Source: Halobacterium salinarum DSM 3754
GTDB taxonomy: Archaea > Halobacteriota > Halobacteria > Halobacteriales > Halobacteriaceae
Direction of reading: 5' to 3'
DNA length: 56,181 nucleotides
NCBI RefSeq assembly: GCF_008124605.1
Contig: NZ_VRYN01000006.1
Span: forward strand, 1 to 56,181
A model generated the notes under the pieces. That model was given only the letters and a program-made list of their open reading frames with translations. It was not told where the DNA came from and searched no databases. The position numbers and the translations under genes were made by a program. Shown here piece after piece: positions 5,557 through 44,040 of this stretch (position 1 is its first letter; the number at the start of each line of letters is the position of its first letter).

Positions 5557-6561
5557 TCACTCCTCAGTAACGAGCTGGGAAAGGGAACAGAAGAGATCGG
5601 TAAGCGTACCGTGGCGTGGTCTATCCGCCGGAGAGAACTGAACTGCCACAGCGTCGGCTTCCTCATGGACAGAGAGTGCCGAAACGGCATCACTTGGGAG
5701 ATCTACCCGAGCAGCCGCCGCTCCGGCAAGCCCAAGGTCTCGACGGAGCGCGGCTGCAAGTGTTGTGGTGGGTACCTGTGAGTCCAGCGTCATTGACACA
5801 CGAAGCTCTCCGTCGTCCGAGATAGCCCCATACCGACGTGTAACGTGGTCGTACACTGGCGGTTTCCGAACAGGGCTAACGGAGTTACACGGTAATTGAA
5901 TGTCGCCGAGGCTGAACCGAAACGGGGACTGTCGCTGGGTCAGGGAGTACGTCCGAAGAGTCGATTCGCCGATTGGGTCCGTGTCACCATGCCAGACTCC
6001 GATGGTGTCCGCGACGATCGACGGGTGACCGACGACGAACGCGGTCTCTGCGAGCACGCTCCCGGCCGTTTCCCCGGTGGTGTACATTGGCCGACCGTGG
6101 CGCATCTCAGCCTGGCGGTCGGTGGAACTATCGACACCGACGAAGTCAGCGAAGTGTTCTTCCGTCCAGTTTGCCCAGACGACGACCGCACCACGACCAC
6201 CGGCAGAGCCGATGAATGCGAGTTTTCCGATGCGCGACGCATCGACAGCCTGGGACGAACCCGTGGACATCAGCCTACGGAGTCGAGCGGGAACTGAAGC
6301 AAACGGAAGAGCTTCGGCGACGGATCCGGCGACGGCACGGACAGGCTCCGGAGGCTCTCCTCGGTTGATCTGAGCCACGGCGAGTGTGTCTGCACTCGCC
6401 GGAATCGTTCCGGCGGTAAGGTCATCAGCGCCGAGTTGGGTGGAACCAGTTGCGTTTCCGTTGACGGTGATGGCGTCAGTGCCGAAGGCTGCGACACTCC
6501 CGCCGAGTATGACGCTACCGGCACCCGCGAGGACTCGCCGTCGTGACTTACCGGATGGCAT
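5557..6561 (-). CDS. Tat-exported protein of unknown function
   Basis: About 334 residues from the ATG at 6561. A TTG 12 bases upstream gives a longer frame but is less likely. The N-terminus is a twin-arginine signal ([23 protein letters not shown]), typical of haloarchaeal secreted proteins folded before export. The rest is a soluble domain with no motif I recognise. It has several TxxAxA-rich helices and a segment [23 protein letters not shown] near the end that suggests a repeated two-domain fold. It stands alone between a decayed antitoxin gene and a small membrane protein. Function unknown. Confidence 0.7.
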
Positions 6562-37867: not shown

Positions 37868-38181
37868 TCGTGAGGGGTTCGCTGTCAAGGGGCAAATATG
37901 CGTCGAACTGCACGGACTCTCGGGGCATCCGGACCTGCGTGATGGCGGTGGCGGCTGTGTAGTATGCTGTCGCTATCGATGACCGCCAGCTACCCACCGC
38001 ACGTTTTTCGCGGCTCGGTGTCGGTAACAGTAGTTGAAAACACGCCGATTCTATTCAGCAACGCGCCTCGGTAATCAGTTAATGTCTGATGCCCTCAAAC
38101 TACCCTTGAGAAGATCGGCAAACAATTGTCTGATTTATGGTAATTGGGCTGAGAGTTGGGGGTCGTGTAGGTGTCTTAGTT
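37868..38181. other. Gap left of the IS6 element
   Basis: No gene supported. It is AT-richer toward the IS. The eight bases next to the IS end (TCTTAGTT) are not repeated on the other side. Confidence 0.4.
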
Positions 38182-38768
38182 GGCACTGTCTAGTTAAGCC
38201 AGTTTGAGAAGTGAGCAGTTCGTTGGTTTTGGTGTCTATGCGAAACCAAGAACTGCTCACAGAGACGTTGAACACAGCGAATCTTGAATGTTGGGAGCGA
38301 GAGCGGACGGCGAAGCCGTCAAGGGTCGCAGTTGACGAGACCGCTATCAAAATCAACGGCGAATGGTCTTGGCTGTACGCTGCAATAGACCTCGACACAA
38401 AATTGATTCTTGACGTGGAATTGTTTGGACGGCATGGGACTGATCCAGCGGCTGCATTTCTTCATGGACTCCGTGAGAAACACGATCTCTCCGACGCTGT
38501 GTTTCTCGTTGACCAGTTCGGCTACCGGACTGCCCTCTCCCGCTTAGGGCTCAACGGTCGGGTTGACTATATCGACAGAAACCTCATCGAAAAGTGGTTT
38601 CACACCTTCAAAATGCGTATCGCCCGTTTCCATAACTCCTGGGTCGGCAGTCGGGCGAGCGCACGCGAATGGATTGAACAATTCGTACATTACTACAACC
38701 GCCAACGACCGCATCAACCACTCGACGAACGAACGCCAGCTGAAGCCGTGCTTAACTAGACAGTGCCC
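38182..38768 (+). mobile_element. IS6-type insertion sequence with perfect 18-bp terminal inverted repeats
   Basis: The left end GGCACTGTCTAGTTAAGC (38182-38199) is exactly repeated in reverse at the right end (38751-38768). The 587-base unit encodes one transposase whose stop codon lies inside the right repeat. The flanking eight bases differ (TCTTAGTT and CTGAGGAA), so there is no target duplication. Recombination between IS copies or an adjacent deletion may have removed one original flank. Confidence 0.92.
38238..38759 (+). CDS. IS6-family transposase
   Basis: 173 residues from the ATG at 38238. DDE residues are in AVDETAIKING, FLVDQFGYR and NLIEKWFHTFK. The tail YYNRQRPHQPLDERTPAEAV is typical of the rve-like C-terminus. 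It is shorter than common IS6 transposases (about 220-240 residues) because the N-terminal helix-turn-helix region is short, but the fit to the element ends suggests a complete gene of a compact subgroup. Confidence 0.88.
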   Translation: MRNQELLTETLNTANLECWERERTAKPSRVAVDETAIKINGEWSWLYAAIDLDTKLILDVELFGRHGTDPAAAFLHGLREKHDLSDAVFLVDQFGYRTALSRLGLNGRVDYIDRNLIEKWFHTFKMRIARFHNSWVGSRASAREWIEQFVHYYNRQRPHQPLDERTPAEAVLN

Positions 38769-39093
38769 TGAGGAAGAAGTAATCAGAGTTCTGCACTACT
38801 GCGATTCTGCTCCGCTTAATGATGACATTGACCGGCTTCTAAGAGCGTGTATGGATAGAGGAATAGACAATATTCGTCGAAATGACCGTGCCCAGTCAGC
38901 AATGCACGCCGTAATTATCAATTCGACGGGTGTTCAGGTTGGCCCGACTACTGAGGAGTCATACTCACGCCAGTTTGAACTCGTTCGAGGGTGGAAAAAC
39001 GACGAAAATCTTAGTCCGGGAGTCCGTCGGTTTGCCCGTAATCTAGAGGGCGACCTCTATGATACGGTTGATGAGGACATAGATTCAATCTAA
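38769..39093 (+). pseudogene. 3' part of a gene cut by the IS6 element
   Basis: A frame open from inside the IS continues to a stop at 39093 and reads like real protein after the IS end (EVIRVLHYCDSAPLNDDIDRLLRACMDRG and SPGVRRFARNLEGDLYDT). It has no start of its own and lower GC than neighbours. Its 5' part is not found left of the IS, in line with the missing target duplication. Function unknown. Confidence 0.6.
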
Positions 39094-39101
39094 AATTCCT
39101 A

Positions 39102-40529
39102 TCAATCGGCATCTGAGGGGGCCCAGTCAGCATCAAATATATCTTCGAATACCTGCCGAGTTTTTGGCGGTTCGGTCGGAATCTGAAGGTCGCGCGGATC
39201 GTCCTCGATGGCCTGCATTAATTCACCAGCGGTGACTTGCTTTCCTTCGCTTAGGTCTTCGCCAGTTTCCTCAGCGCGGAGGATGTTCGTCACCGTCCAA
39301 ATGTTGAAGGGGTGGGCCGCGAAGTTGAAGTAGAACGCCCGAAGCGCCGGATTCTTCGACCCAGACTTGGCCAAGAAGTCGCGTTTGATTTTCCGGAAGT
39401 CCGTTTCGATGCCCCACCGACGGCGGTACGCCTTCCCCAACTCTTCTGGTGGGACTTCCTCCGGGTGAAGGTTCGTGTAGAAGTACGTGTAGTCGTCCAT
39501 CGGCTCATTAGCCCCTGAGTTCCGTAGTTTCACCGTCTTGTCCGACTCCAGCCCAACCGCGTAGTAGCTATCTTCGTCGAGGTTGCCCACGCCGTAGGAG
39601 TAGTACGACGACCGCAGATCGGTACGGGCCATCCCGTTCAGGAAGTGCTTGATGGTCGAAATCGTGTCCGAGTTGTAGAACTCTGTCCCGGCGTCAAGGT
39701 AGACGCGGCCGATATCCACGTGTTGCCTGCTCAGCCGGAGCATCCAACGGATATACTTCGAGGCCTTCGACTTGTCTCTGACAAGGAGCACGACCAGAAT
39801 CAGCGGCGTGTCGGTCCCGACGACAGCGAGCGTGATGTACTTCCACGCCCACGAGTAGTTCCGGCCCGGCTTCGTCCGGCGAATGTACTCGTCACTCTCT
39901 GAGTCGCCGTAGAACGGCCAATGCGTGATGTCGATAGCGACCTCTGCATCCTCGGGGAAGTAGTCGTACCGGGCGGCGATCTTGAACAGTTGCTCATTCG
40001 CCTCCCGGAACATCCGCATGACTGACTCCCGTGAGGACTTCCGAAGGTGGTGCGTGAGGTTCTGTCCGGTCGGGATGTCGCCGTCGTCGTAGAACGGTTT
40101 GTACTTGAGGTTCTTCGCGGCGTCGTTGACGAACCCGTTCCCGTTCGCGGCGGCGATGAGCACCCGGAGCGACGGATCTTTGGTCACTTCCGTGCTGTCG
40201 TCGCGCTTCAGTCGGAGGTACTTGAACGTCTTCGAGCGAAGCTCCCGAGCGATCACCTGAACCGGCGGGAACCCCTCGCCGTCAGTGGCTATCGTGTCCG
40301 GTGTTGGGCCTCGAAACCAGTGTTCGAGCTTCGTGCCCTGCAAGCGCCGGACCAGCGTTTCAGTCTCGCTCGCGTAGTAGTGCCGCGTCGCGTCCTCTCC
40401 ATCCAGATTCTCGGTGAGGTTCTCGTTAGTCGGCTTCGACCAGTAGTACGGACGAAGCTGGACCTTCCCGAGTGCCTTTGCGAGCCGATGCTCGGGCGTC
40501 TCTAGCTCGTCGTACCGATCCCGTTCCAC
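39102..40529 (-). CDS. DDE transposase-like protein (IS4-like)
   Basis: 475 residues from the GTG at 40529, but homologous-looking coding extends upstream without a start codon to 40712 (IIPPLWEVIKSEAYSIHNWSV). Likely catalytic residues are Asp in AIDITHWPFYGD, Asp in VYLDAGTEFYN, and Glu in the IS4-type YRRRWGIETDFRKIKRDF motif. No terminal repeats were found around it. It runs downstream of the HTH-RHH-RelE genes on the same strand with only 12 bases between the toxin stop and the likely original start. It may be a lost IS or a domesticated gene. Confidence 0.75.
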   Translation of the reverse strand: MERDRYDELETPEHRLAKALGKVQLRPYYWSKPTNENLTENLDGEDATRHYYASETETLVRRLQGTKLEHWFRGPTPDTIATDGEGFPPVQVIARELRSKTFKYLRLKRDDSTEVTKDPSLRVLIAAANGNGFVNDAAKNLKYKPFYDDGDIPTGQNLTHHLRKSSRESVMRMFREANEQLFKIAARYDYFPEDAEVAIDITHWPFYGDSESDEYIRRTKPGRNYSWAWKYITLAVVGTDTPLILVVLLVRDKSKASKYIRWMLRLSRQHVDIGRVYLDAGTEFYNSDTISTIKHFLNGMARTDLRSSYYSYGVGNLDEDSYYAVGLESDKTVKLRNSGANEPMDDYTYFYTNLHPEEVPPEELGKAYRRRWGIETDFRKIKRDFLAKSGSKNPALRAFYFNFAAHPFNIWTVTNILRAEETGEDLSEGKQVTAGELMQAIEDDPRDLQIPTEPPKTRQVFEDIFDADWAPSDAD

Positions 40530-40774
40530 CGACCAATTGTGGATGCTGTAGGCCTCTGATTTGATTACTTCCCACAGCGGCGGGATGATATTCTTGGCCG
40601 GATTGCGCGTCGGGAGGGCCGTGTACCCCCAAGTGTCATACCGCGGGTTGTCGGGTAGCTTACTCTTGGCTTCTCTGTACCGGCTTGAAATCTCCGCCTT
40701 TTCTTCTGCCGCTCATGGATTTCACCCTTCGACTCAGGGTCACGGTCGGCGTTCTCGTCTTTCTCCTTTGCCAC
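40530..40774 (-). pseudogene. Frameshifted 5' end of the transposase-like gene
   Basis: A GTG at 40774 opens a frame (AKEKDENADRDPESKGEIHERQKK) that ought to join the transposase frame. The join needs one extra base at an A4 run near 40704, where AAGAAAAGG would become AAGAAAAAGG. Downstream of this point the correct frame continues EISSRYREAKSKLPDNPRYD into the main ORF. It is either a one-base deletion or a sequencing error. Confidence 0.5.
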
Positions 40775-40786
40775 GACAAATCCCCC

Positions 40787-41086
40787 CTACTCATCGTCTC
40801 GCCACGACCCCCATACCTCCCGATACTTCCCGAGTTCGCGGTACTCCTTCTTCCGCTCGAAGGCATCGATGGCGTAGATCACCTCGTTGTCCTTGTCCCA
40901 CTCGATCAGGACGCGGAAGTCACCGACACGAAGCTTGTAGCCGGGGTGGTTCTTCAACCGATCAAGAAAGTGGCCCGGGAAGTCGCCGATGTCCTCCAGC
41001 TTGTTGATGATCCGCTCGGCTTCCTCTGTCTCAAACTGTTCCAGCGTTTCGACCAACGTCTCCGTCAGAACGACCTCATGAGCCAC
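40787..41086 (-). CDS. relE: RelE/ParE-type toxin
   Basis: 99 residues. The RelE fold is suggested by VVLTETLVETLEQFETEEAERIINKLEDI followed by HFLDRLKNHPGYKLRVGDFRVLIEWDKDNEVIYAIDAFERKKEYREL. The run YKLRVGDFRVLIEWD is the family hallmark. RelE toxins cut mRNA at the ribosome. It starts ten bases after the antitoxin stop, in the antitoxin-first order of type II systems. Confidence 0.9.
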   Translation of the reverse strand: MAHEVVLTETLVETLEQFETEEAERIINKLEDIGDFPGHFLDRLKNHPGYKLRVGDFRVLIEWDKDNEVIYAIDAFERKKEYRELGKYREVWGSWRDDE

Positions 41087-41096
41087 CGTTCAGCCC

Positions 41097-41375
41097 TCAG
41101 TCGTCGATACCGAGGCGTTCTCGGGCCTCATCTGTGGACATCGTCCGGCCCGCTGCAACGTCCGCGTAGCCCTCTGAGACGCCTTCCTGCGCACCAGGCG
41201 TCAGAATCGGCTCCGTGGTATCGCGCAGCACCTCACGGATGAACTCCGAGCGGTTGGTGTAGTTCAGTTCCTCCGAAAGCTCATCAAGCTCGTCCAGAAG
41301 CCGCTTCGGCACCTTGACGTTGAGCTTCACCATCTCACCCTCCTCCCCGTTATCCCCGGGCGTGTCCGTGCTCAT
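41097..41375 (-). CDS. Ribbon-helix-helix antitoxin
   Basis: 92 residues from the ATG at 41375; an earlier in-frame start at 41402 is less likely. The RHH core is MVKLNVKVPKRLLDELDELSEELNYTNRSEFIREVLRD. The C-terminal tail with AAGRTMSTDEARERLG probably wraps the toxin. It would bind DNA at its own promoter and neutralise the RelE product. Confidence 0.9.
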   Translation of the reverse strand: MSTDTPGDNGEEGEMVKLNVKVPKRLLDELDELSEELNYTNRSEFIREVLRDTTEPILTPGAQEGVSEGYADVAAGRTMSTDEARERLGIDD

Positions 41376-41413
41376 ACGCTGTGGTACGCCGGTGGTACTC
41401 AAAGAACTGTCGC

Positions 41414-41623
41414 TCAGTCGTCCCGCGGATCGCTGACCAGTTCGTAGAGGCCGCTTTCATGGGCTTTTTCGACGTGTCCAGCAGCGACAAGAACGTTTAG
41501 ACGGTTGTGAATGGTCTGTTTCGACAGGCCAGTCCAATCTACAAGAACAGCAGGCGTACACCGTCCTTTCTGAAGCTCATCAAGGATTTTTCGGTCACTT
41601 TCTATCAACTCGTCTGCTTCCAT
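41414..41623 (-). CDS. Winged-helix transcriptional regulator
   Basis: 69 residues from the ATG at 41623 (start at 41638 also open, but it falls too close to a TATA-like TAATACC). The sequence SDRKILDELQKGRCTPAVLVDWTGLSKQTIHNRLNVLVAAGHVEKAHESGLYELV is a single winged helix of a type common in haloarchaeal plasmids and proviruses. It leads the RHH-RelE genes and faces the unknown operon starting at 41835, so it may control both. Confidence 0.82.
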   Translation of the reverse strand: MEADELIESDRKILDELQKGRCTPAVLVDWTGLSKQTIHNRLNVLVAAGHVEKAHESGLYELVSDPRDD

Positions 41624-41672
41624 CTTTGTTGCTTGCATGCGTGACTATGGGCATAGGTATTACGAGTGGTTA

Positions 41673-41714
41673 GTTAGTCCTTTTGGATAGTATGGACTAA
41701 ATGGATTGACTAAC
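41673..41714. promoter_or_regulatory. Operator-like inverted repeats of TTAGTC half-sites
   Basis: TTAGTCC (41674-41680) pairs with GGACTAA (41694-41700). GTTAGTC (41673-41679) also pairs with GACTAAC (41708-41714). A further GTTAGT overlaps at 41669-41674. The cluster lies in the divergent spacer upstream of the winged-helix gene and is a likely binding site for that regulator or the RHH antitoxin. Confidence 0.6.
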
Positions 41715-41784
41715 AGTAAATCATATGAGGATGGCGGTGAGAGTGATTGTTGAGAAGCGCGGGACGCCGGTCAGAAGTTGCCCG

Positions 41785-41835
41785 GGGCGTGTTTGGACCA
41801 CGCCCGACCGTGCTTCGCTGGAGACCAACGAAGCA
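41785..41835 (+). promoter_or_regulatory. Two tandem hairpins at the start of the unknown operon
   Basis: Hairpin 1: GGGCGTG (41785-41791) and CACGCCC (41799-41805). Hairpin 2: TGCTTCG (41811-41817) and CGAAGCA (41829-41835), whose last base is the A of the ATG at 41835. They could control translation of the first gene or be protein sites. Confidence 0.5.
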
Positions 41836-42047
41836 TGTCAATGAAGACATCCGCCGGACTTCAGGATTCCGGCACGGCGAACGAATCGAACCCCGAAAAC
41901 GAGGAGGCCGACTCCGCTCTTGCGGAGCTTATCGAGCAACACGAGAACACCGACTGGAGTGACGTTCCAGGCATCAGCGCCGCGGAAGCAGGTGCGTGGA
42001 CGGCACGACTGATCGAGGCGCGAGAATCCACCCCGGAGGGTCTGTGA
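41835..42047 (+). CDS. Small acidic protein, first gene of unknown operon
   Basis: 70 residues (MSMKTSAGLQDSG, then ENEEADSALAELIEQHENTDWSDVPGISAAEAGAWTARLIEARE). It looks like a soluble helical protein with no known domain. The stop overlaps the ATG of the next gene (TGATG), indicating coupled translation. The longer frame from 41778 was not used because the ATG at 41835 follows the two hairpins. Confidence 0.6.
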   Translation: MSMKTSAGLQDSGTANESNPENEEADSALAELIEQHENTDWSDVPGISAAEAGAWTARLIEARESTPEGL

Positions 42048-42535
42048 TGCAGCGTCGTCAGTTCCTCGCCGCGGCCGCAGCACTCACGGCACTTCCGCAG
42101 GCGGCACAAGCTGAGGCGGCTGGCAACACGACCACCCCCGGCGAGATCGTCGAAGACCGAAGCGTGACCGACGATGGAACGTACTCGCTCACCGACTGTG
42201 GCTCCGTTCCAGGTGGGCTGAACAACGTCCACGTCACGGCAGAAATGAACGACGGCCCGCTCGAAATTGAAGGTGTTCACGAAGAGAACGGCTGGTGCGG
42301 TGTCGGGCTCCGCTGGAGTTCTGGCCCTATCGAGGTTGGCACTGGACTCGATCCAGACGACGCCCGCGAGGAGTTCGCTGGCGTGCCCGTGAACCAGTCG
42401 GTGCCCGAGGGCACGGACGGCGATGCGGCGGCGCTCTCGCGGCCTCAGCAGAAGCAAGAGCAGACCGTCCCCGACCCACAACGACCACTACCGGCTGTCC
42501 CTGCTCACCGGCGAGACGGCCTACGACCCTGGTGA
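42047..42535 (+). CDS. Exported protein of unknown function
   Basis: 162 residues beginning with a twin-arginine-like signal (MQRRQFLAAAAALTALPQAAQA). The mature part has a probable beta domain (VTDDGTYSLTDCGSVPGGLNNVHVTAEM, then NGWCGVGLRWSSGPIEVG) with two cysteines about 50 residues apart. The last 37 residues overlap the next gene in another frame and have odd composition (RPQQKQEQTVPDPQ), so the true C-terminus may have been shifted. Confidence 0.55.
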   Translation: MQRRQFLAAAAALTALPQAAQAEAAGNTTTPGEIVEDRSVTDDGTYSLTDCGSVPGGLNNVHVTAEMNDGPLEIEGVHEENGWCGVGLRWSSGPIEVGTGLDPDDAREEFAGVPVNQSVPEGTDGDAAALSRPQQKQEQTVPDPQRPLPAVPAHRRDGLRPW

Positions 42536-43034
42536 GTTCTCGCAGGCGACCATCGAGATCGAGGTGTCGGACCTCATCGGCATCGAGGACGCACAGACCG
42601 CGCACGAGCGGTGGCTGGCGTCCGACGTGGCAGCCGCGTTCAACGAGTCGGTGTATCACCCGTACACCTCGTTGAAGTTCCACACGCTCCTCGTGGCGGC
42701 GCTACTGGATAACCCCCGGGCCGATCACGACTTCGGCGATCTCCGGCTCATCGTGGACCCGGCGGGCGACGTCGTCCCGTTCCGCACGGTCTTCAACGGC
42801 GACCGCTTCGCGCTCCGTATCGACGAGAACACCGACGGGAGTCCGTCGGCCCGGCTTGGAAGCCGGCCGTGGCGGTCGTGGGCGTCAGTGTGGAACCGCC
42901 TGACAGCGCACCCGCTCGATACCGGTCACGACAAGTACGACATGACCCTCGATGCCAACCTTCGGCGGATGCAGTCCTGGAGCGCGGCGCTCCAGTACAT
43001 CGAAGACTACCACGAGTGGAGGCCCGACCGATGA
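42423..43034 (+). CDS. Unknown protein, third gene of operon
   Basis: 203 residues if started at the ATG at 42423; the first 18 residues are very basic and may not be translated. The core reads HYRLSLLTGETAYDPGEFSQATIEIEV, YHPYTSLKFHTLLVAALLDNPRADHDFGDLRLIVDPAGDVVPFRTVF and RPWRSWASVWNRL. I do not recognise the family. It overlaps the previous gene and its stop overlaps the ATG of the last gene (ATGA), so the products are probably made together. Confidence 0.6.
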   Translation: MRRRSRGLSRSKSRPSPTHNDHYRLSLLTGETAYDPGEFSQATIEIEVSDLIGIEDAQTAHERWLASDVAAAFNESVYHPYTSLKFHTLLVAALLDNPRADHDFGDLRLIVDPAGDVVPFRTVFNGDRFALRIDENTDGSPSARLGSRPWRSWASVWNRLTAHPLDTGHDKYDMTLDANLRRMQSWSAALQYIEDYHEWRPDR

Positions 43035-43936
43035 CGGCGATTCAGCAAGTCCTGTGGGAACTGTGGATGGACTACATCGGCCACCCGTACTACGTCTCGG
43101 GGAACGCCATCCTGCACGCCCTCGGCCAGCACCTCGATCCCGAGATCCACGGGTCGGTATCGGCCAGTCATGGCGTCTTCGTCCCCGGTCAGTTCGGGAC
43201 GTTCCCCGAGGAACACACGCAGTCGGGCATCCGGCCGTACCTCGGGAGCGGCCTCCCCGACGTCAAGGCCTACGACGACCTCTTCCTCCAGCGGGAAGCG
43301 ATGCATCCGTGGCTGCTGGACACCCGCGCTCGGGACGCGCTGAACACGCATGATCTCCGGGTCCACGGCGGCCACCCGGCGCTCGCCCACGAGACGATCA
43401 TGGGTCGCCGGGAAGACCAGCGGAAGCAACAGCAGACGACGAAGTGGTACGTTCACGCCTACCTCCACGCCGATGACCCGACGGTACTCCCACTCGGCGA
43501 GGATGTGCTGGAGGGACTCCAGTTCGGCGGCAAGCGCAACTACGGCTACGGCGAGGTCCAGCTGAAGGACACGCAGATGGTGGACCTCGATGAACTGGAC
43601 TACTCGCGGCTCGAAGGCGCGGAGACGTACCTCATCGAACTCGTGACGCCGTTCGTGGTGGAGTCGGAGTATCCCGACGCGGACGACCGGCCTGTCCCGT
43701 GGTGGTGGGCTGAGAACCGCGACGGTCTCCGGCTTCGTGAGGAGAAGATCCTCGAACAGCGCGAGGTATTCAGACTGGAGACGGTGGACCACGGGCAGGT
43801 CGTGAAGTACCTTGGCGACCGTCCGGTGGAGACCGCGAAGAACGGCCTCACGAGGGTCGGCTCGCACTCCCGATACGGCTTCGGTGAACTGCGGCTGAAG
43901 CCCCTCGGCGAACAGTATCAGGAATCAGAGAAGTAA
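43031..43936 (+). CDS. RAMP-like protein with two glycine-rich loops
   Basis: 301 residues. Two segments end in a loop of the RAMP type: GGKRNYGYGE at 166-175, followed by a strand-like VQL, and GSHSRYGFGE at 277-286, followed by LRL near the C-terminus. A strand-like ETYLIELVTPFVVESEY opens the second half. The N-terminal part (GNAILHALGQHL, SHGVFVPGQFG) would fit a first ferredoxin-like fold. This is the layout of two-RRM-fold Cas proteins such as Cas6, Csm4 or Cmr3, but no CRISPR or cas genes are nearby and no catalytic residues can be assigned. The call is inference from motif shape. Confidence 0.5.
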   Translation: MTAIQQVLWELWMDYIGHPYYVSGNAILHALGQHLDPEIHGSVSASHGVFVPGQFGTFPEEHTQSGIRPYLGSGLPDVKAYDDLFLQREAMHPWLLDTRARDALNTHDLRVHGGHPALAHETIMGRREDQRKQQQTTKWYVHAYLHADDPTVLPLGEDVLEGLQFGGKRNYGYGEVQLKDTQMVDLDELDYSRLEGAETYLIELVTPFVVESEYPDADDRPVPWWWAENRDGLRLREEKILEQREVFRLETVDHGQVVKYLGDRPVETAKNGLTRVGSHSRYGFGELRLKPLGEQYQESEK

Positions 43937-44021
43937 CGACTAACAAGCAACCGATGGAACACCAGAATCAGGATGAATCGGACGAGAAAAATACAGCGGT
44001 GCGGCTGAATAAAGAAATCGT

Positions 44022-44040
44022 ATTACCAACAACTGGTAAT
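44022..44040. terminator. Inverted repeat between convergent operons
   Basis: ATTACCA and TGGTAAT arms around ACAAC. It lies between the RAMP-like gene and the end of the ugp operon, so a terminator or boundary element is plausible, though there is no T-run. Confidence 0.4.

Follow-up and report, generated by a model that had tools for sequence, protein, structure and literature searches.

A degenerate ISH3-like transposon of Halobacterium salinarum whose intact sisters carry nuclease-less HRAMP-like genes

HRAMP (haloarchaeal RAMP; Makarova et al. 2019) is an already known system, described as array-less and type III-derived (PMC8730458, PMC12669027), and HNH, PD-(D/E)xK and other nucleases are among its associated proteins. 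In the literature that we searched, no HRAMP function has been demonstrated. The other close comparison is with CRISPR-associated transposons (CASTs), of which the known examples are Tn7-like or Mu-like (PMC11406308, PMC11656645).

The locus studied here lies in a 56,181-nucleotide stretch of Halobacterium salinarum DSM 3754 (contig NZ_VRYN01000006.1; the window), where the original prediction had seen a regulator and a toxin-antitoxin pair facing a compact four-gene operon that ends in a RAMP-like protein. Its intact relatives carry three overlapping genes, called A, B and C below. Like HRAMP, these relatives are haloarchaeal and array-less and have diverged Cas5 and Cas7 homologues of type III affinity, and their uncharacterised protein B may correspond to that of HRAMP; unlike HRAMP, they form a separate clade without nucleases, in which A, B and C overlap compactly and are transposon-borne, with a transposase and a leader RNA of their own. 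With CASTs they share a nuclease-deficient class 1-like effector core aboard a transposon, but they have a single ISH3-like transposase, ~30-bp terminal inverted repeats (TIRs) and 4-bp NTAN duplications in place of Tn7- or Mu-like machinery, their proteins are type III-like, no array is present and guided insertion is only hypothetical. Type III Csm and Cmr complexes resemble them in having, by profile, Csm3-like and Cmr3-like subunits, and differ in that the clade has no recognised Cas10 or small subunit, no array, and extremely diverged proteins. The DDE transposase has as its best match the ISH3 model NF033541 (E 3.4e-33), but it is 611 aa long, misses the ISH3 family threshold (scores of 115 and 82 bits, where 225 are required) and travels with several kb of cargo.

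What had been seen as a cassette is the right portion of a degenerate transposon, which entered at an NTAN site and generated a 4-bp duplication there. At ~20 loci, DNA similarity breaks off sharply at window position ~44038, where a conserved 30-bp end forms the boundary, and an inverted copy of this end, with a 4-bp duplication, lies on the far side of the neighbouring transposase; the resulting 6,008-bp element (38028-44035) encloses the entire cassette and that transposase. A whole-genome search within the family found no empty site that was close enough, but six Halobacterium plasmid records contain the joined flanks as one unbroken piece (~97.8%), and in the record read in detail, that of Halobacterium sp. 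GSL-19, a single GTAA at the join marks the empty site. The element thus shows each hallmark expected of a DDE transposon: TIRs, a duplicated target and an empty site. In Halobacterium salinarum NRC-1, pNRC200 217573-223580 is 100% identical to the window element. The parts of the window copy are as follows.

38024-38027, target-site duplication, left copy, GTAA; the same 4 bp stand at 44036-44039, and once in the GSL-19 empty site
38028-38057, plus strand, left terminal inverted repeat CAGTAGTTGAAAACACGCCGATTCTATTCA; 20/30 against the inverse of the right end, 29/30 against sister left ends
38185-39100, nested insertion, a stretch missing from the intact sister L085 (blastn gap)
38211-38759, IS6/IS240-like transposase gene in the nested insertion (PF13610, 2.1e-8; IS6 family transposase in the NRC-1 annotation)
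39102-40774, minus strand, ISH3-like DDE transposase, a pseudogene; lacks aa ~126-173, has in-frame TGAs and a broken frame (611 aa in intact sisters)
40787-41086, minus strand, ParE/RelE-like toxin (PF05016, 3.6e-4, just under the gathering score)
41097-41402, minus strand, ribbon-helix-helix (RHH) antitoxin (PF01402, 1.4e-7)
41414-41638, minus strand, winged-helix regulator (PF12802 MarR_2, 4.9e-8)
41669-41714, 16-nt inverted repeat, a putative operator amid the divergent transcripts; arms 41669-41684 and 41699-41714, 81%
41754-41845, plus strand, structured leader RNA (model R1, 98 bits); its 3' hairpin covers the gene 1 start codon
41835-42047, plus strand, gene 1, a 70-aa acidic protein in a variable cargo position; 74-80% identical in L028, L003 and L036
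42047-42535, plus strand, chimeric reading frame 'gene 2'; the N-terminal part of a putatively exported ~125-aa protein (twin-arginine-like signal), joined to gene B residues 17-60
42356-42369, plus strand, internal deletion junction; 14 bp common to both breakpoints
42423-43034, plus strand, gene B remnant 'gene 3', residues 60-246 of ~246 aa; frameshift near 42471, and the ATG at 42423 is not the native start
43031-43936, plus strand, gene C, an intact Cas5/Cmr3-like RAMP protein of 301 aa (VNG_RS11520 in NRC-1, 'hypothetical protein')
44006-44035, plus strand, right terminal inverted repeat TGAATAAAGAAATCGTATTACCAACAACTG, the conserved 30-bp end
44036-44039, target-site duplication, right copy, GTAA; pairs with 38024-38027

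The antitoxin gene VNG_RS11535 (window 41097-41402) is annotated in NRC-1 as Phd/YefM, yet its profile match is to the ribbon-helix-helix family PF01402.

Over the family of elements, NTAN abuts 28 of 29 distinct right ends, and of the 13 complete elements whose left end could be recognised, 11 have identical 4 bp outside both ends; shuffling gave a mean of 1.9 and at most 7. Beyond the NTAN preference, the 29 right ends show no common target, and in a homing test the insertion flanks resembled their own element no more than background. Direct repeats of at least 20 nt within 150 bp were absent from three elements, so these hold no CRISPR array; none had been claimed for the locus, and the window element likewise lacks any CRISPR-like repeat.

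An intact sister with every part is found on pNATPE01 of Natrinema pellirubrum (L085/L171; 6,569 bp, duplication GTAT). One strand carries the TIR, the 611-aa transposase and the ParE-like, RHH and winged-helix genes; the other carries the leader RNA, gene 1, gene 2 and the overlapping A, B and C, followed by the TIR. Relative to this sister, 1.39 kb has been deleted from the window copy, taking with it the end of gene 2, gene A in its entirety and codons 1-16 of B. The deletion joins sister-element positions 5912 and 7300 and has ~14 bp of shared sequence at its junction; deletion between short direct repeats has been described for haloarchaea (PMC3119063). What remains of gene B lies in two frames, residues 17-60 at 42341-42472 (in the 'gene 2' frame) and residues 60-246 at 42471-43031. 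With A deleted and B both truncated and frameshifted, 'gene 2', 'gene 3' and the 113-nt overlap between them are artefacts, and the window copy is incapable of building the complex in cis.

The original prediction therefore stands in part. Its reading frames exist, both on the plus strand (41835-42047, 42047-42535, 42423-43034 and 43031-43936) and on the minus strand, where the winged-helix (41414-41638), RHH (41097-41402) and RelE-like (40787-41086) calls are borne out by domain profiles. The spacer has the repeats reported for it, the 16-nt inverted repeat (81%) and also a 9-nt direct repeat, and the two glycine-rich loops of the last gene are not only present but invariant or nearly so among 20 relatives. 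Among its three overlaps, those at 42045-42049 and 43031-43034 are real, whereas the one at 42423-42535 is a product of the deletion and the frameshifted B; with A missing, B broken and gene 2 chimeric, the compact four-gene operon does not exist in the window copy. The supposed linkage of the divergent halves proved correct, since both lie inside one transposon, with its TIRs, target duplication and empty site. Recurrence of the regulatory set, proposed as a check, was seen in whole or in part (HTH-RHH-ParE) in three other complete elements; the ParE/RelE-like toxin is 94-96% identical in three other complete elements, and the ParE/RHH genes are common to the elements in L082 and L084.

Profile matches point to A as Cas7/Csm3-like and C as Cas5/Cmr3-like, with B a conserved uncharacterised protein, which together with the literature would make the three the core of HRAMP. 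A RAMP-like last gene had been predicted, and 27 of 28 C homologues match Cmr3 models (best 6.7e-9), so that the Cas5 homologue of HRAMP is present. In intact sisters, A matches Csm3 (best 2.6e-6), and 9 of 25 members match Pfam RAMP families (best 1.4e-4); the Cas7 homologue is thus found in the intact sisters and is deleted from the window copy. The same profile check, proposed for genes 3 and 4 together, succeeded for C and found no match for B, a gene common to transposon-borne and chromosomal loci. PDB sequence searches with A, B and C returned nothing above chance, and AlphaFold models of C and B from 20-row alignments had pLDDT values of 41 and 40, too low for fold claims.

Of 391 genomes searched across the class, 116 have C homologues, which fall into two groups. 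The chromosomal group (47-56% identity to the window C) has no TIRs and mostly continues with a 222-aa DEDDh/RNase H-like nuclease and a ~355-aa HNH nuclease. At the 20 chromosomal loci the DEDDh-type gene was present in 18, and either the HNH gene or an alternative gene (three loci) in all 20. This group looks like published HRAMP; its loci with HNH and DEDDh-type nucleases (L094-L113) fit the published description. At L101, L105 and L110, an unrelated ~240-aa third gene replaces the HNH nuclease after C, and the one that was scanned had no Pfam match. The window group is at least 75% identical to the window C, and neither nuclease was found at any of its 63 loci (0/63), which makes it a nuclease-less derivative and not typical HRAMP. 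In the C tree, this transposon clade is a single branch with 100/100 support, separated by a long branch from the chromosomal group, and within it sequences are up to 97% identical across family borders. C relatives occur in many haloarchaeal genera, one genome holding several partial copies, and viral contigs contained none. The dN/dS values of A (0.14), B (0.25) and C (0.18) indicate purifying selection.

Regulators and first genes vary between the other elements, while A-B-C is constant. Elsewhere in the window genome, contig C13 matches pHSAL2 of H. salinarum 91-R6 without a difference over 16 kb and carries another element, in which A, B and C are intact (HBSAL_RS12640, 12635 and 12630 in 91-R6). 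A third element (C13 4358-9274) is flanked by target-site duplications and has an intact transposase but no HRAMP genes. This transposase-only derivative (L114; L170 19853-24769), with matching 4-bp duplications, retains just a scrap of the gene 1 start and the right end, and its left part holds a metallophosphoesterase gene and other genes. Conversely, duplication-flanked elements at L007 and L091 have A, B and C without a transposase. Elements with only one half thus exist, so neither half is strictly required in cis. Within the 611-aa transposase clade, 14 of 19 loci lie at most 9 kb from a C gene, and at a 15th, L039, a fragment of C lies within the element. At L017 (5685-6365), the C-terminal half of a TnpB (Cas12f1-like TNB domain, 9.2e-10) stands immediately before gene A.

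Our preferred reading, to which we give a probability of roughly 75%, is that the window holds a degenerate transposon whose intact sisters combine an ISH3-like transposase with a nuclease-less HRAMP core, an effector expected to bind without cutting. By analogy with type III complexes, A would polymerise along RNA as a backbone, C would cap this backbone and B may be an accessory subunit; the complex would then bind nucleic acid without cutting it and could work on behalf of the transposon, or of the plasmid that carries it, to mark, silence or choose targets. Our analysis of A-B-C found no guide RNA, array or target.

The best surviving alternative, which we place a little short of even odds, is that A-B-C is defensive cargo directed against competing plasmids, viruses and transposons by RNA-guided binding or by recruitment of a host nuclease, with no role in transposition, and that the ParE/RHH pair is likewise cargo. 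A defensive role has been predicted for chromosomal HRAMP (PMC8730458), other accessory genes are aboard (the toxin-antitoxin pair, variable small reading frames, the TnpB half), and HRAMP-less elements have also moved or persisted. However, every transposon-borne locus has lost both nucleases, the predicted cutters, and A-B-C remain together while the remaining cargo varies.

We consider a CAST-like role unlikely, in which the complex, lacking nucleases, would choose or license the sites where the ISH3-like transposase inserts, using a guide from outside an array. CASTs do likewise carry effectors minus their nuclease (PMC11656645), the transposase clade is found mostly with HRAMP, and the C tree is consistent with a single acquisition followed by wide spread; against this stand the missing array, the lack both of a shared target beyond NTAN and of a match between flanks and element, the elements with one half only, and an ISH3-like transposase without Tns subunits. 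Similarly doubtful is the wider idea of a new sort of CRISPR-associated transposon, an ISH3-like element in which the array-less, nuclease-less and type III-derived HRAMP complex would steer or license transposition, or hold rival elements in check, by means of a guide RNA of unspecified source.

The leader RNA (~88 nt; loci L115-L144) is missing from Rfam 15. Its covariation is strong: in 40 sequences, counted on an alignment fitted to the model, 13 of 20 pairs are changed on both sides, compared with 3.6 in shuffled and 2-5 in slid controls. The RNA occurs in 114 of 391 genomes, mostly distant from HRAMP, and heads variable accessory operons, at the start codon, with a divergent small regulator. 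It is a separate, widespread haloarchaeal motif and is probably not specific to HRAMP. The divergent regulator of RNA-headed operons is often a winged-helix protein or a ~80-aa protein ending like 'EEHHPELLEELREVVC' (L145-L158), and several such operons lie, by eye, near Orc1/Cdc6-like ATPase genes, suggesting plasmid-like islands. The 3' strand of the closing stem has two mutually exclusive pairing partners, the 5' end of the leader and the stretch ahead of the start codon. Because this alternative pairing surrounds the start codon, a translational switch is the likeliest role.

That the leader is instead a guide or scaffold RNA of the complex, and not an mRNA control element, seems to us quite improbable. 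Its structure is strong, it lies immediately upstream of the operon in 28 of the 59 transposon-clade loci listed, and genomes with the transposon clade are enriched for it (odds 3.9). Yet the odds are 0.97 for genomes whose C homologues all fall outside the clade, most RNA-bearing genomes lack the transposon clade, 53 of the 81 RNA sites tallied have no such C gene nearby and head unrelated accessory operons, and the RNA sits on the start codon of whichever gene comes next. The stand-alone divergent chromosomal cassette of the original prediction can be set aside, since, despite divergent genes and a repeat-rich spacer, the TIRs, the target duplication, the GSL-19 empty site and the broken genes make the window copy a decayed transposon-borne relative of HRAMP.

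The literature that we searched, which did not include the founding HRAMP paper (PMC6702361), does not describe a transposon-borne nuclease-less HRAMP clade, and a term search of two papers on haloarchaeal mobile elements found no such element. Our preferred reading, a transposase joined to a nuclease-less HRAMP core, suggests capture of a CRISPR-like complex by a transposon that belongs to none of the known CRISPR-transposon groups. If true, a transposon would here have independently acquired a CRISPR-like effector whose source was type III-like, the element's own ISH3-like transposase would have spread it, and selection would be keeping a nuclease-less HRAMP derivative across many haloarchaeal genera. 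Since H. salinarum plasmids carry copies, broken in NRC-1 and intact in 91-R6, the role of HRAMP would be testable in a model archaeon.
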